Positions 10,725 through 14,401 of a stretch of DNA of 64,000 bases are shown here, piece by piece; the first letter of the stretch is position 1, and each line of letters opens with the position of its first letter. The DNA is taken from assembly GCF_030056815.1 (NCBI RefSeq), contig NZ_JASHKR010000006.1, positions 1 to 64,000 on the forward strand, in the 5' to 3' direction. Position numbers and translations under genes: made by a program. The notes under the pieces were generated by a model. It did no database searches. It worked only from the letters and a program-made list of their open reading frames with translations, and was not told the DNA's origin. The stretch is from Rhodococcus sp. IEGM 1379. GTDB lineage: Bacteria > Actinomycetota > Actinomycetes > Mycobacteriales > Mycobacteriaceae.

Positions 10725-10950
10725 ATTTCTTGCGATTCGGCAGGATTACCAGCAGTAGCCCCGCAACGACGGCTGCGCCGACGAAGATCCACCGGAATTG
10801 CATGTCGGCTGCCGGTGCGAGAGAGAACGGCCCGAGCAGAGCCCACACGCTGACCAGCATCGCCAAGACTCCTGCGATCAGCAGAAGTACGGACGGGCGC
10901 TTGGTCTTTCGAGCTTCTTCAGAGTCCGTGGTGTCGTCGTATTCGCTCAT
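10723..10950 (-). CDS. Small membrane protein, two predicted transmembrane segments
   Basis: A 75-residue protein with an acidic, charged first 18 residues, two hydrophobic segments (about 20-41, VLLLIAGVLAMLVSVWALLG, and 53-70, WIFVGAAVVAGLLLVILP) and a basic end. No family recognised. Its ATG overlaps the TGA of the PspC/LiaF-like gene upstream, so it is translationally coupled to it and probably belongs to the same envelope-stress operon. An accessory or stabilising subunit is possible but not shown. Confidence 0.75.
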   Translation of the reverse strand: MSEYDDTTDSEEARKTKRPSVLLLIAGVLAMLVSVWALLGPFSLAPAADMQFRWIFVGAAVVAGLLLVILPNRKK

Positions 10951-12326
10951 GACTGGTGTACCTCCAAGCTTCCGAACGTTGCTTTGGCGTTGATAGTCAC
11001 AGTGGGTGCATCAGGTCCGGCTTGGGATCCGTGGTGGGGATTGTCCGGGAGACAACCGGATCCATCACCGAATACGACGGTGCAATTATTCACGACGTTC
11101 ACGTTGTCCGGAACGGAGATGATGAATTCGCCGAAGGCCGCCGAGACGTCGATTGTCTTGTCCTCGGTGAATGCCACACCCTTGAGATCCAGTTGGAAGC
11201 TACCGAACCCGCCGGTGTACGACGGCTGAATCTCGGACGCGTTCATGGGAACCCATGTCTGTTCACCCGAGGCGTCGAATTTCAAGGGATCGACCAACGA
11301 CGCGAGTAGAACAAAGCCGACGAGCGGCGCTGTCACGACCAGCAATCCATATCCCTTGCGAAAGAACGCGCCCAGAATCAAACCGGCGGCGACGACGGCA
11401 AGTCCGACGGCACCGACGCGGCCCGGCGTGAACCAGTCGTTGCCGGTCGCAGCCCCGGCCGCGCCGGTGACGGATGTGGCGATGATCGCGAGTCCGAGGA
11501 CGGTCAGTGTCCAGCGGGAGCGTCGGGGCCGAGGGCGAAGGGGCAGCAGGGGAGTGTTCTTGACTGCCGGATCGGGAAGATCCCAGGCGAACGGTGCAAC
11601 TCCCAGGGGATCCCAGGACGGTGGGGTGACGGTTCGCTCTTGCTCGTCGACGGAACCGCTGGAGCTCTTGGAACCGCTGGGGCTCTTGGAACCACCGGGG
11701 CTTTTGGATAGATCGACAGCCGGCTCGGGGGCGATGTAGCTGTCCGGGAGTTTGGTGTACGGCGTGTAGACCGGCGGCTGGTCCGGGGTGAAATGTCCGG
11801 GGGCATAGTATCCGGGAGTGAACGGGCCGGGTGTGAATCCTGTTCCGGGATAGGCTGTTCCGGACCCGATGTACTGAGAGGTGCTCGGGGGCAACGCCGG
11901 TGGAACGGGTTGTCGTTGATAGAGAAGCCACAATCCGCCGAGCATCAGCATCAATCCGATCAGTCCAGCGCCGCCCTTTCCGGCCCCGATGGGCCCGATT
12001 GTGGTTGCGGCGATGGCGAGTGCCACCAACAGGACGATCGTTTTGGTGCCGGCTTCGGATCGCCGTCGACGATGGAACATCGACTCGGCCGAGGAGGGGC
12101 CGGTATCAGCGCGGGCGAGAACCAGCCATCCCGCGAGATACAGGAGGATGCCCGAACCCCCGAAGATGGTCGAGACGACAAAGGCGACGCGCACGAGGAT
12201 CGGGTCGACGCCGTAGCGGTATCCGATTCCGGCGCACACGCCGGCAACGTGGCCCTGGGCGGGTAGACGCACGGGGCGGGTCCGCCACAGATCTTGGATC
12301 TGTTCCTGGAAAGTCGGAGTGCTCAT
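10947..12326 (-). CDS. PspC/LiaF-like membrane protein, probable EsrI-type inhibitor
   Basis: About 459 residues. An N-terminal PspC domain (about 20-70, with HVAGVCAGIGYRYGVDP and a membrane segment) is followed by two further hydrophobic segments. A Pro/Gly/Tyr-rich linker with repeated FTPG and PGGSKSPSGSKSSSGS follows, then three more membrane segments near 280-350. The C-terminal all-beta region (FGSFQLDLKG, AAFGEFIISVPDNVNVV) resembles the LiaF C-terminal domain. In Corynebacterium glutamicum an EsrI protein of this type restrains the kinase EsrS. Here the gene is divergent from a PspC-kinase and its regulator, giving the same three components. ATG 12326 was chosen because it faces the operators; an in-frame ATG at 12362 would overlap them. 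Confidence 0.8.
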   Translation of the reverse strand: MSTPTFQEQIQDLWRTRPVRLPAQGHVAGVCAGIGYRYGVDPILVRVAFVVSTIFGGSGILLYLAGWLVLARADTGPSSAESMFHRRRRSEAGTKTIVLLVALAIAATTIGPIGAGKGGAGLIGLMLMLGGLWLLYQRQPVPPALPPSTSQYIGSGTAYPGTGFTPGPFTPGYYAPGHFTPDQPPVYTPYTKLPDSYIAPEPAVDLSKSPGGSKSPSGSKSSSGSVDEQERTVTPPSWDPLGVAPFAWDLPDPAVKNTPLLPLRPRPRRSRWTLTVLGLAIIATSVTGAAGAATGNDWFTPGRVGAVGLAVVAAGLILGAFFRKGYGLLVVTAPLVGFVLLASLVDPLKFDASGEQTWVPMNASEIQPSYTGGFGSFQLDLKGVAFTEDKTIDVSAAFGEFIISVPDNVNVVNNCTVVFGDGSGCLPDNPHHGSQAGPDAPTVTINAKATFGSLEVHQS

Positions 12327-12360
12327 GAATCCATCGTCGTGGGTCGGGTGGTGGTGGCGC

Positions 12361-12379
12361 ATCAGGGCTGGGCCCTGAT
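12361..12379. promoter_or_regulatory. Inverted repeat 1 between esrI-like and esrS-like genes
   Basis: ATCAGGGC-TGG-GCCCTGAT, perfect 8-bp arms. Its centre (12370) is 44 bases from the start codon of the leftward PspC/LiaF-like gene. It shares core and TGG spacer with a second copy 42 bases away. Confidence 0.7.
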
Positions 12380-12403
12380 CTTTGCCGTAGTCGAGCTACG
12401 ACC

Positions 12404-12420
12404 TCAGGGTTGGACCCTGA
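12404..12420. promoter_or_regulatory. Inverted repeat 2 between esrI-like and esrS-like genes
   Basis: TCAGGGT-TGG-ACCCTGA, perfect 7-bp arms. Its centre (12412) is 42 bases, about four helical turns, from repeat 1 and 44 bases from the GTG proposed as kinase start. It is the probable binding site of the LuxR-type regulator encoded downstream (autoregulation, inferred). Confidence 0.7.
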
Positions 12421-12455
12421 TGTGTGCGCCGGAGGTTCGTGCCAGTATCGACTAT

Positions 12456-13742
12456 GTGCAATCTGTGTCTGATCCCGCGCTCGTGAGTGCGCCGCTTCCA
12501 CTGCCGCTGCGAAAGCTGGAGCGCCGCTCCGGTGGTCGCATCGTCGGCGGTGTGGCCGGCGGAATCTCGGATCATCTCGGCGTCGACGTCCTGAAGGTTC
12601 GTGTTGCGTTCGCGATCCTGGCAGCGATGGCCGGTGCCGGAATAGTGGTGTACGGGCTTCTCTGGGCGTTCGTATCGGTGGGTACAGATACCGAGAAGGC
12701 GAGTGCTGCCGAGCGTCAACGTGCCTATGGATTGATCGCTCTCGGCCTGGGCGGAGCCGCGGCACTGTCCTGGCTGTTCAGCGGCACTGCCGGATCGGTG
12801 CTGGCGCCCTTCTTCGTCGTCGCCATCGGTGCGGCCCTGGTGTGGCGGGAGTTCGATTCCGAGGGCCCACGTACCGTCATCGGACTGCCGCAACGCCCTA
12901 CCGTCCTGACGTGGACCCGTGTGGTCGGCGGTGCGACGCTTATCGTTCTGGGCCTCGCGGTCGTGGTGTTGGCTCAGGTCGATATCGATGCCCTGCGGTC
13001 ATCCTTCTTGGCGGTGATCGTGACGTTGATCGGTGCCGGACTGTTGACGGTTCCGTTATGGCTGCGGATGTGGCGAGCTCTGGGCGCCGAGCGTGCTGCT
13101 CGAATCCGCAACGACGAGCGTGAGGAAATCGCGTCGCACCTGCATGATTCGGTGTTGCAGACCTTGGCGCTGATTCAGAAACAGTCCGAAAATCCTGCGG
13201 AAGTCGCGCGGCTCGCCCGGGGGCAGGAACGCGAGCTTCGGAAGTGGCTGTTCAGCGGCGGCGAGATCGACCACACCAGCCTGACCGAGGGGCTCAAGAT
13301 CATCGCGGGTGAGGTGGAGGATCAGCACGGCGTGACGGTTCGTCCGGTCACGGTCGGAGACGTGCAACTCGGCGGTGAGAACGGCCTGCCGAAGGAAGCA
13401 TTTACCGCCCTTCTCGGTGCGACCCGCGAGGCTCTGGTCAACTCGGCCAAGCATTCTGGAGAGAAGGAGATCAACTTGTTCGCCGAAGTCGAGGGCGATC
13501 AGGTCAGCATTTTTGTACGCGACCGCGGTGTGGGTTTCGACGTCGACGCGGTGCCCGAGGATCGTCAGGGATTGGCCAAGTCGATCCGGGGGCGCATCGA
13601 GCGTCGTGGGGGCCGCGTAGTGGTTCGGTCGAGTCCGGGCAAGGGGACCGAGATCCGGGTTCACATGCCGCTTGACGGCAAGGCTGACCTACAGTGGGAC
13701 GAGTCCGTAGACCATGCCCCGAACCCTGAGGAACAGTTCTAG
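12456..13742 (+). CDS. PspC-domain sensor histidine kinase, EsrS/LiaS-like
   Basis: About 428 residues. An N-terminal PspC domain (RRSGGRIVGGVAGGISDHLG) with its membrane segment is followed by further hydrophobic segments. The HisKA_3 dimerisation helix reads EEIASHLHDSVLQTLALIQ, whose first His is the phosphorylation site. The HATPase domain has the N-box ALVNSAKHSG and the G-box DRGVGFDVDAVP. The start is uncertain: GTG 12456 was chosen because ATG 12420 lies inside an operator, and TATCGA at 12446 could be a -10 box giving a nearly leaderless message. The stop overlaps the regulator's GTG by one base. The family senses envelope damage through membrane partners rather than a large outer domain. 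Confidence 0.85.
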   Translation: MQSVSDPALVSAPLPLPLRKLERRSGGRIVGGVAGGISDHLGVDVLKVRVAFAILAAMAGAGIVVYGLLWAFVSVGTDTEKASAAERQRAYGLIALGLGGAAALSWLFSGTAGSVLAPFFVVAIGAALVWREFDSEGPRTVIGLPQRPTVLTWTRVVGGATLIVLGLAVVVLAQVDIDALRSSFLAVIVTLIGAGLLTVPLWLRMWRALGAERAARIRNDEREEIASHLHDSVLQTLALIQKQSENPAEVARLARGQERELRKWLFSGGEIDHTSLTEGLKIIAGEVEDQHGVTVRPVTVGDVQLGGENGLPKEAFTALLGATREALVNSAKHSGEKEINLFAEVEGDQVSIFVRDRGVGFDVDAVPEDRQGLAKSIRGRIERRGGRVVVRSSPGKGTEIRVHMPLDGKADLQWDESVDHAPNPEEQF

Positions 13743-14401
13743 TGACCTTGCCGCCAGTGCCCCCGTATCGCGTTTTTCTCGTCGACGATCATGGGGTGTT
13801 CCGCTCCGGAGTTCGCGCCGAATTGTCTCGCGAGAACGACATGGAGATAGTCGGTGAAGCCGGCGGTGTGGCCGAGGCGATCGCCGGCATCAACAAGACC
13901 AAACCGCACGTCGTCTTGCTTGACGTGCACATGCCCGACGGCGGCGGGGTGGCCGTGCTTCGCGGGATAGATTCGGGCCCGGTGTGCTTGGCGCTCAGCG
14001 TGTCCGATGCGGCCGAGGATGTCATCGCGGTGATTCGCGGCGGCGCGCGGGGCTACGTGACCAAAACGATTTCAGGGTCGGAATTGGCAGACGGTGTGCG
14101 TCGGGTCGCGGGCGGCGACGCCGTGTTCGGGCCTCGGTTGGCGGGATTCGTGCTTGATTCCTTCACCGGCCGGTCTGCAGCTCCGGAACCGCAACTCGAT
14201 CCGGAACTGGACTCTCTGACACCGCGTGAACTCGAAGTCCTCCGGTTGCTCGCCCGGGGTTACACCTACCGTGAAATCGCGGAGGAACTGGTGATTTCCG
14301 TGAAGACGGTCGAGACCCATGCGTCGAATGTTCTGCGAAAGACTCAGCAGTCCAATCGCAATGCGCTGACGCGTTGGGCGCATCGCCGTCAGATCGACTG
14401 A
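13742..14401 (+). CDS. NarL/LuxR-family response regulator, EsrR/LiaR-like
   Basis: A 219-residue regulator. The receiver domain (9-125) has the acidic pair DD at 15-16, phosphoacceptor D61 (VVLLDVHMPD) and switch residues in ALSVSD and YVTKTI. The C-terminal LuxR helix-turn-helix reads LTPRELEVLRLLARGYTYRE and KTVETHASNVLRKTQ. It overlaps the kinase gene by one base, so the two are made together. It is the best candidate for binding the twin inverted repeats at 12361-12420. Confidence 0.92.
   Translation: MTLPPVPPYRVFLVDDHGVFRSGVRAELSRENDMEIVGEAGGVAEAIAGINKTKPHVVLLDVHMPDGGGVAVLRGIDSGPVCLALSVSDAAEDVIAVIRGGARGYVTKTISGSELADGVRRVAGGDAVFGPRLAGFVLDSFTGRSAAPEPQLDPELDSLTPRELEVLRLLARGYTYREIAEELVISVKTVETHASNVLRKTQQSNRNALTRWAHRRQID

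Follow-up and report, generated by a model that had tools for sequence, protein, structure and literature searches.

The window analysed here, a 64,000-nucleotide stretch of DNA from Rhodococcus sp. IEGM 1379, contains a three-gene locus in which two genes for PspC-domain proteins diverge from a 129 bp intergenic region, and within that region lie two inverted repeats, called boxes below, that mirror one another with respect to the two start codons. The features of the locus, in their order along the window, are as follows.

10947..12326, minus strand: esrI-like gene for a PspC domain membrane protein (Pfam PspC, 60.9 bits, over the cut-off)
12333..12338, minus strand: predicted -10 of esrI, GACGAT, 6 nt before the ATG
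12361..12379, no strand given: predicted EsrR operator (left box), ATCAGGGC-TGG-GCCCTGAT; its centre, 12370, lies 44 nt upstream of the esrI start codon
12404..12420, no strand given: predicted EsrR operator (right box), TCAGGGT-TGG-ACCCTGA; its centre, 12412, lies 44 nt upstream of the esrS start codon
12421..12422, plus strand: TG directly after the right box, part of a conserved CCCYGATG
12440..12448, plus strand: TGC-CAGTAT, predicted to be an extended -10 for esrS, at 7 nt from the GTG
12456..13742, plus strand: esrS-like gene for a histidine kinase that exceeds the Pfam cut-offs for PspC (55 bits) and HATPase_c (37.3 bits)
13742..14401, plus strand: esrR-like gene for a LuxR/NarL-type response regulator (REC and GerE over the cut-off)

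Judged by its domains and gene order, this is an EsrISR-type locus, and the kind of system is already known. The kinase carries an N-terminal PspC domain, a LuxR/NarL-type regulator directly follows it, and a second PspC gene runs divergently, its ATG at 12326 on the minus strand and the GTG of the esrS-like gene at 12456 on the plus strand. The first-pass annotation had named the two divergent genes EsrI- and EsrS-like and placed them with a LuxR-type regulator in a three-component system, a reading that the Pfam domains and the divergent arrangement bear out. The C-terminus of the EsrI-like protein has a weak similarity to LiaF-like_C (21.5 bits, below the Pfam cut-off of 29). For the EsrS-like kinase, the LiaS-family model Strep_LiaS scored 53.4 bits against a cut-off of 450, and the best NCBIfam model was MacS with 109.6 bits against a cut-off of 300; the kinase does not qualify as a LiaS-family member. 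Among solved structures the EsrR-like protein was matched best by DevR/DosR (3c3w, E 1.4e-31), with VraR also among the nearest. The nearest named relative among the matches was Rhodococcus globerulus NBRC 14531, whose DNA is 82-84% identical in the pieces that align, and its boxes lie at offsets of -94 and -52 from the EsrS match, identical to those of the window. More distant g3 relatives, which we call Corynebacterium-like because the best named matches of a g3-led query were Corynebacterium, share 36-44% identity in EsrS and 61-73% in EsrR with the window proteins.

The three-part envelope-stress logic of an inhibitor membrane protein, a kinase and a NarL-type regulator is known from the LiaFSR and VraSR systems of Firmicutes. 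The window locus shares this logic, and VraR is one of the structural neighbours of its regulator, whereas it differs in having PspC fused to the kinase, in its divergent genes and in a LiaF-like C-terminus that stays below the cut-off. In Corynebacterium glutamicum, EsrISR, as reportedly described by Kleine et al. in 2017, is said to consist of divergent esrI and esrSR with PspC in both EsrI and EsrS and a LuxR-type EsrR; EsrI reportedly inhibits EsrSR, lipid-II antibiotics reportedly induce the system, and its regulon reportedly includes an ABC transporter. Divergent PspC genes and a LuxR-type EsrR are common to that system and ours, and the membership of esrI in its own regulon and that of an ABC transporter have predicted counterparts here; the locus here, in contrast, is from Rhodococcus, and its operator, the placing of that operator at -44 and the pairing of two leaderless promoters are predictions from sequence. 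The C. glutamicum system is treated in PMC6975037, PMC9960051 and PMC9239133, each of which was covered in part. The covered part of PMC11237479 describes an actinobacterial Lia-like PspC system, in which a kinase with N-terminal PspC and a REC-HTH partner have their promoter region in common with a divergent PspC gene, sometimes with a Toastrack domain. This is the same gene set and the same promoter sharing as in the window, and no operator or promoter layout for the Lia-like PspC system was found in that part of the paper.

The twin repeats reported in the first-pass annotation are real, with centres 42 bp apart, and the distance of 44 nt that it had given between each centre and the proposed start of the adjacent gene proved correct on both sides. 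Exact matches to TCAGGGN5CCCTGA numbered two in the window against 0.01 expected, and none of 100 dinucleotide shuffles contained two such sites; with two mismatches allowed, two places were found against 3.16 expected, which is not unusual. Across the genome of 6,136,602 bases, TCAGGGN{4,6}CCCTGA occurs at these two places only. Conservation also extends past the inverted repeat itself, since at the positions directly after the box, which the search pattern left free, T and G are present in 93 and 77% of sequences on the esrS side (n=56) and in 100 and 91% on the esrI side (n=43). An ATG adjoins the outer edge of each box (12362 on the minus strand, 12420 on the plus strand), and in the window it is in frame with its own gene. 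Between the boxes, at 12386-12399, another short inverted stretch of the CGTAG/CTACG type was noticed by eye.

A site centred near -44, with no -35 and with an extended -10, occupies the usual place of a class-II activator. In the window each box reaches from about -52 to -36 relative to the predicted transcription start, and a promoter and terminator scan of 12300-12500 returned neither a sigma-70 consensus promoter nor a terminator. The conserved layout predicts that esrS is transcribed without a leader from the GTG at 12456, and the near-leaderless messages of the first-pass annotation survive as very short predicted leaders, for which leaderless transcription fits the sequence layout best. 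Such starts would be ordinary in this group, given that 33% of C. glutamicum mRNAs are leaderless; in the same organism 3-11 nt separate the -10 from the transcription start (both from the covered part of PMC3890552). Transcription starts that would place the repeats downstream of the promoters appear unlikely given the conserved -10-like hexamers.

This arrangement is widely conserved. Of the 151 genomes of the family, 133 have an EsrS match at E <= 1e-30; 130 EsrS regions were fetched, and the 126 with a clean divergent esrI were kept. A box with at most one mismatch to TCAGGG-N4/5-CCCYGA is present in 125 of the 126. To pass our layout test, such a box had to be followed at 26-45 nt by an in-frame start codon of the gene, and that codon had to be preceded at 5-8 nt by a NANNNT hexamer. 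The esrI side passed in 115 of 126 regions, the esrS side in 81 and both sides in 79, and to this extent the sequences on either side have the form expected of leaderless class-II promoters. Fully shuffled regions produced no layouts over 20 rounds, and when the box was kept and the following 48 nt were shuffled, 6.3 (esrI) and 5.9 (esrS) layouts were expected. Among the rows selected by this test, which spans only 34-54 nt from the box centre, the distance from centre to start is 42-46 nt in 190 of 196 layouts (114/115 for esrI, 76/81 for esrS), the gap from box to hexamer is 22-24 nt in 190 of 196, and the hexamer stands 6-7 nt before the start in 195 of 196. The same hexamer words recur, CAGTAT (23/81) and CAGGAT (20/81) being commonest before esrS and CAGGAT and CACGAT before esrI.

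Within the box the two halves are unequally kept. The promoter-distal half reads TCAGGG in 179 of the 196 layout-passing boxes, and the promoter-proximal half is CCCCGA in 72, CCCTGA in 69 and TCCCGA in 37, counts made with a pattern that tolerated one mismatch and allowed C or T in the proximal half. Most boxes in relatives are therefore imperfect palindromes, unlike the two of the window, which places the perfect palindromes of the window at the strong end of the range. The esrS-side layout is absent from 45 of the 126 regions, including 9/9 in g11, 9/9 in g30 and 6/7 in g23, and in g11 the esrI side passes in just 2/9. Outside the esr region, 80 named loci (1.12 Mb, both strands counted) contained 27 background boxes, of which 13 passed a loose hexamer-plus-start test in any frame; that test is thus weak taken alone, and the stronger evidence is the narrow distances together with the recurring hexamer words. 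In a separate check of 37 loci hand-picked from the 80, made with a looser box, a stricter hexamer and no frame test, a related layout was present on at least one side in 34, often on one side only. Loci from Corynebacterium, Amycolatopsis, Saccharopolyspora, Nocardioides and Kribbella are among the named loci with the layout; L184, L187 and L233 were those of the 37 in which this check returned none.

The box also recurs at other genes. The first-pass annotation had proposed a genome scan for the motif as a route to the regulon, and with the family pattern TCAGGGN{4,5}CCCYGA, or a model built from the promoters, such a scan does lead to further genes. In the window's own genome the pattern occurs at six places: the two esr boxes, one place before the gene of an ABC-transporter ATPase, one before a gene for a 58-aa membrane protein, and two others (C44:8002 and C185:125711) at which no convincing target gene was seen. 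Among the 30 best-scoring orthologs of the ABC gene, an exact box lies within 300 bp upstream in 19 and a box with at most one mismatch in 25; for the 30 best-scoring orthologs of the 58-aa protein the corresponding numbers are 11 and 28, and elsewhere in these 60 loci the exact box occurs once. A sequence-only model was trained on 47 esrI/esrS promoters, with no genus contributing more than one per side and with alignment rows chosen by the layout test, and applied to the window's own genome, where 150 of 4692 candidates received a score. The ABC promoter ranked third at 27.2 bits (E 2.9e-5), behind two training promoters, and the next match reached 19.9 bits. The fourth to sixth matches in this genome (on C94, C87 and C22) look like chance or coding places. 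At a threshold of at least 13 bits, the model found an upstream match at 24 of 30 ABC loci and at 23 of 30 loci of a stand-alone PspC gene.

That stand-alone gene completes the set of PspC-domain places in the genome, which are three in number: esrI, esrS and this gene. Its box, TCGGGGAAATTCCCGA, departs from the pattern at two positions, and a -10-like hexamer and then an ATG come after it; the model gives this box 13.6 bits in the window's own genome (E 0.55), which alone is not significant, and within 250 bp upstream of the orthologs an exact box is present in 2 of 30 and one with at most one mismatch in 10 of 30. In many loci of this gene (L407 with its orthologs L408-L436; C68:5382-5582 in its own genome) an extra GATCAGGG half lies about 12 bp farther upstream, possibly a two-dimer version of the operator. 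Two PspC loci have a further model match some 500 bp ahead of the gene, of 20.8 bits at L422:983-1032 and of 18.4 bits at L417:870-917. At the small-protein promoter the box lies farther from a plausible -10, and CCCTGATCTT is repeated beside the box in many loci. The 58-aa hydrophobic protein (L293-L322; C54:8981-9154) has no Pfam family over the cut-off, and by eye its gene is divergent from a BioY-like gene.

In g3/g4 genomes that have EsrS, an exact box precedes the best match to the ABC gene in 1 of 17 and a one-mismatch box in 3 of 17. Genomes that lack EsrSR have no box before this gene (0/6), which is weak evidence, since 13 of the 17 EsrSR-positive g3/g4 genomes are also without it. 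Loosening the search did not help: a pattern with two mismatches gave 227 matches per strand in the genome against 160 for its reversed counterpart and was rejected as too noisy a regulon finder, and on reading, 13 single-mismatch places (L153-L165) had no consistent gene.

EsrR is the obvious candidate for the protein that binds these boxes. Its helix-turn-helix is nearly invariant among the 18 sequences compared, and the gene accompanies its kinase closely, being found for all 49 EsrS loci checked, beside esrS in 45 and farther off in four. Where esrR stands away from esrS (about 6 kb in G134, 2.4 kb in G023 and about 8 kb in G002 and G114), the boxes are retained. Conversely, EsrR was undetected at E <= 1e-40 in 18 of 18 genomes lacking EsrS, two of which are incomplete (G035 at 85% and G093 at 81%); EsrS and EsrR were both undetected in 9/9 of the g29 genomes examined. 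Ten genomes from the genus of the window have 74 matches to the family pattern, esr boxes included, and 13 to its reversed form, as against 15 and 10 in nine genomes that lack both EsrS and EsrR, these EsrSR-negative controls being few and confounded by kinship.

Based on these observations, we consider it probable that the twin repeats are EsrR operators that activate two divergent leaderless promoters and, through further copies, a small regulon. Under envelope stress the PspC kinase EsrS would presumably phosphorylate EsrR, whose dimers would bind TCAGGG-N4/5-CCCYGATG centred at about -44 of both promoters. These promoters would use a -10-like hexamer, in the case of esrS the extended TGC-CAGTAT, without a sigma-70-type -35, and bound EsrR would recruit RNA polymerase in class-II fashion. 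With each box serving its own promoter, stress would raise EsrI, the inhibitor, along with EsrS and EsrR, and the same box would control the ABC-transporter ATPase, the stand-alone PspC protein and the 58-aa membrane protein. The boxes, their conservation, the near-fixed distance to the start, the hexamer and the recurrence at other genes are direct observations, from which we infer EsrR as the binder, activation as the effect and the transcription starts. The covered part of PMC6975037 places C. glutamicum esrI in the Esr regulon and reports that it rises 2.31-fold on AmyE secretion and not on cutinase secretion, and the activation reading fits this rise on AmyE secretion.

The layout could also be read as negative autoregulation, in which EsrR binds the same boxes, covers the -35 region and is released under stress. 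A box at about -52 to -36 is able to block polymerase in principle, whereas a fixed centre and an absent -35 are, as a matter of general knowledge, typical of class-II activation. The C. glutamicum literature, as far as covered, points both ways: EsrISR represses nlpC during envelope stress (PMC9960051), whereas Esr-regulon genes, esrI among them, are up on AmyE secretion (PMC6975037). On balance we regard repression at the esr promoters as unlikely. A different question is whether EsrR is merely a neighbour of boxes that belong to another regulator. DosR/DevR of mycobacteria, of the same NarL-type family, likewise uses a GGG...CCC palindrome, with 8 nt between GGG and CCC where the boxes here have 4-5 and with a different stimulus, and the family pattern does occur at 12 places in the nine genomes without EsrS and EsrR. 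The near-absence of pattern enrichment in those nine genomes compared with the window's genus, the presence of a box in all but one of the 126 esrI-esrS regions, its occurrence at genes of the same theme, the nearly invariant EsrR helix-turn-helix and the joint failure to detect EsrS and EsrR in 18/18 genomes, however, all speak for EsrR; we leave another binder only a small chance. Very improbable, finally, is the reading of the repeats as RNA hairpins of an attenuator or leader, or of the box-edge ATGs as the real start codons, a reading suggested by the fact that in the window both repeats could fold into short, fully paired stems and both have an adjoining ATG. The repeats lie upstream of the predicted starts, the region has no terminator-like site, and in relatives a proximal CCCCGA or TCCCGA (109/196) breaks the pairing with the retained TCAGGG. 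On reading, the right-hand ATG in L014 is out of frame with esrS, so this ATG more likely belongs to the box than serves as a start codon. The unpaired relatives, the frame in L014 and the lack of a terminator led us to reject both the hairpin and the alternative-ATG version.

The spacing between the boxes bears on whether the two act as one unit. The first-pass annotation had predicted cooperative, symmetric autoregulation; the symmetric layout stands on both arms, and cooperativity through a fixed 42-bp spacing does not, because in the 79 two-sided regions the distance between box centres ranges from 25 to 784 bp with an SD of 156 (one value of 0, at L111, included). The distance from box centre to start, by comparison, has an SD of 0.87 on the esrI side and 2.3 on the esrS side, against 5.8 for chance passes of the layout test, and in L025, L026 and L031 (g6) the boxes are some 780 bp apart, far enough to accommodate a gene, and each promoter keeps its own. 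A fixed distance to the start combined with a variable distance between boxes indicates that each box belongs to its own promoter, and the spread rules out fixed four-turn cooperativity as a conserved feature. Cooperation of the boxes as a looped or side-by-side unit, for which the 42-bp, four-turn spacing would be essential, might still be argued from the clustering of inter-box distances near 36, 42-46, 52-56 and 62-65.5 bp. A helical-phase test on distances of 20-110 bp, with one sample per genus, gave a mean R of 0.40 (P ~0.06), which weakly suggests a mild helical-phase preference between the boxes. Every box nevertheless stays fixed to its own gene over the whole 25-784 bp range, and the box before the ABC gene has no divergent twin; we accordingly rate a spacing-dependent unit as rather improbable.

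What the sequence analysis offers is a strong and testable prediction of an operator with a rigid promoter grammar. In the literature covered on EsrISR, EsrR and PspC kinases, parts of papers for the most part and with the original EsrISR paper outside its scope, the box was not recognised as reported. The covered part of PMC9960051 does mention EsrR sites at nlpC as known from the original EsrISR work, so that the motif may already have been published. If EsrR-driven activation is correct, EsrR-type responses would gain a recognisable operator and promoter grammar across many actinobacterial genera, and regulons could then be read from sequence. Feedback would act directly on the inhibitor and on the sensor/regulator pair alike, and the stand-alone PspC protein and the ABC transporter would be tied to the envelope-stress response. 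More tentatively, and as a conjecture we would not yet favour, the locus may represent an old, compact actinobacterial stress regulon whose promoters all follow a single rigid plan, with an EsrR box near -44 and a leaderless start, and which here takes in all three PspC-domain genes and the ABC transporter; its mirror geometry might then hold the ratio of inhibitor to sensor/regulator constant and so write the feedback set-point into the promoter geometry. Regions whose boxes lie 25 to 784 bp apart form a natural set for separating independent from cooperative control.

In two genomes (G049 and G066, loci L280 and L281), an exact family-pattern box was also seen at a distance of about 16 kb from esrS; by eye, the gene that follows it encodes a putative membrane protein.
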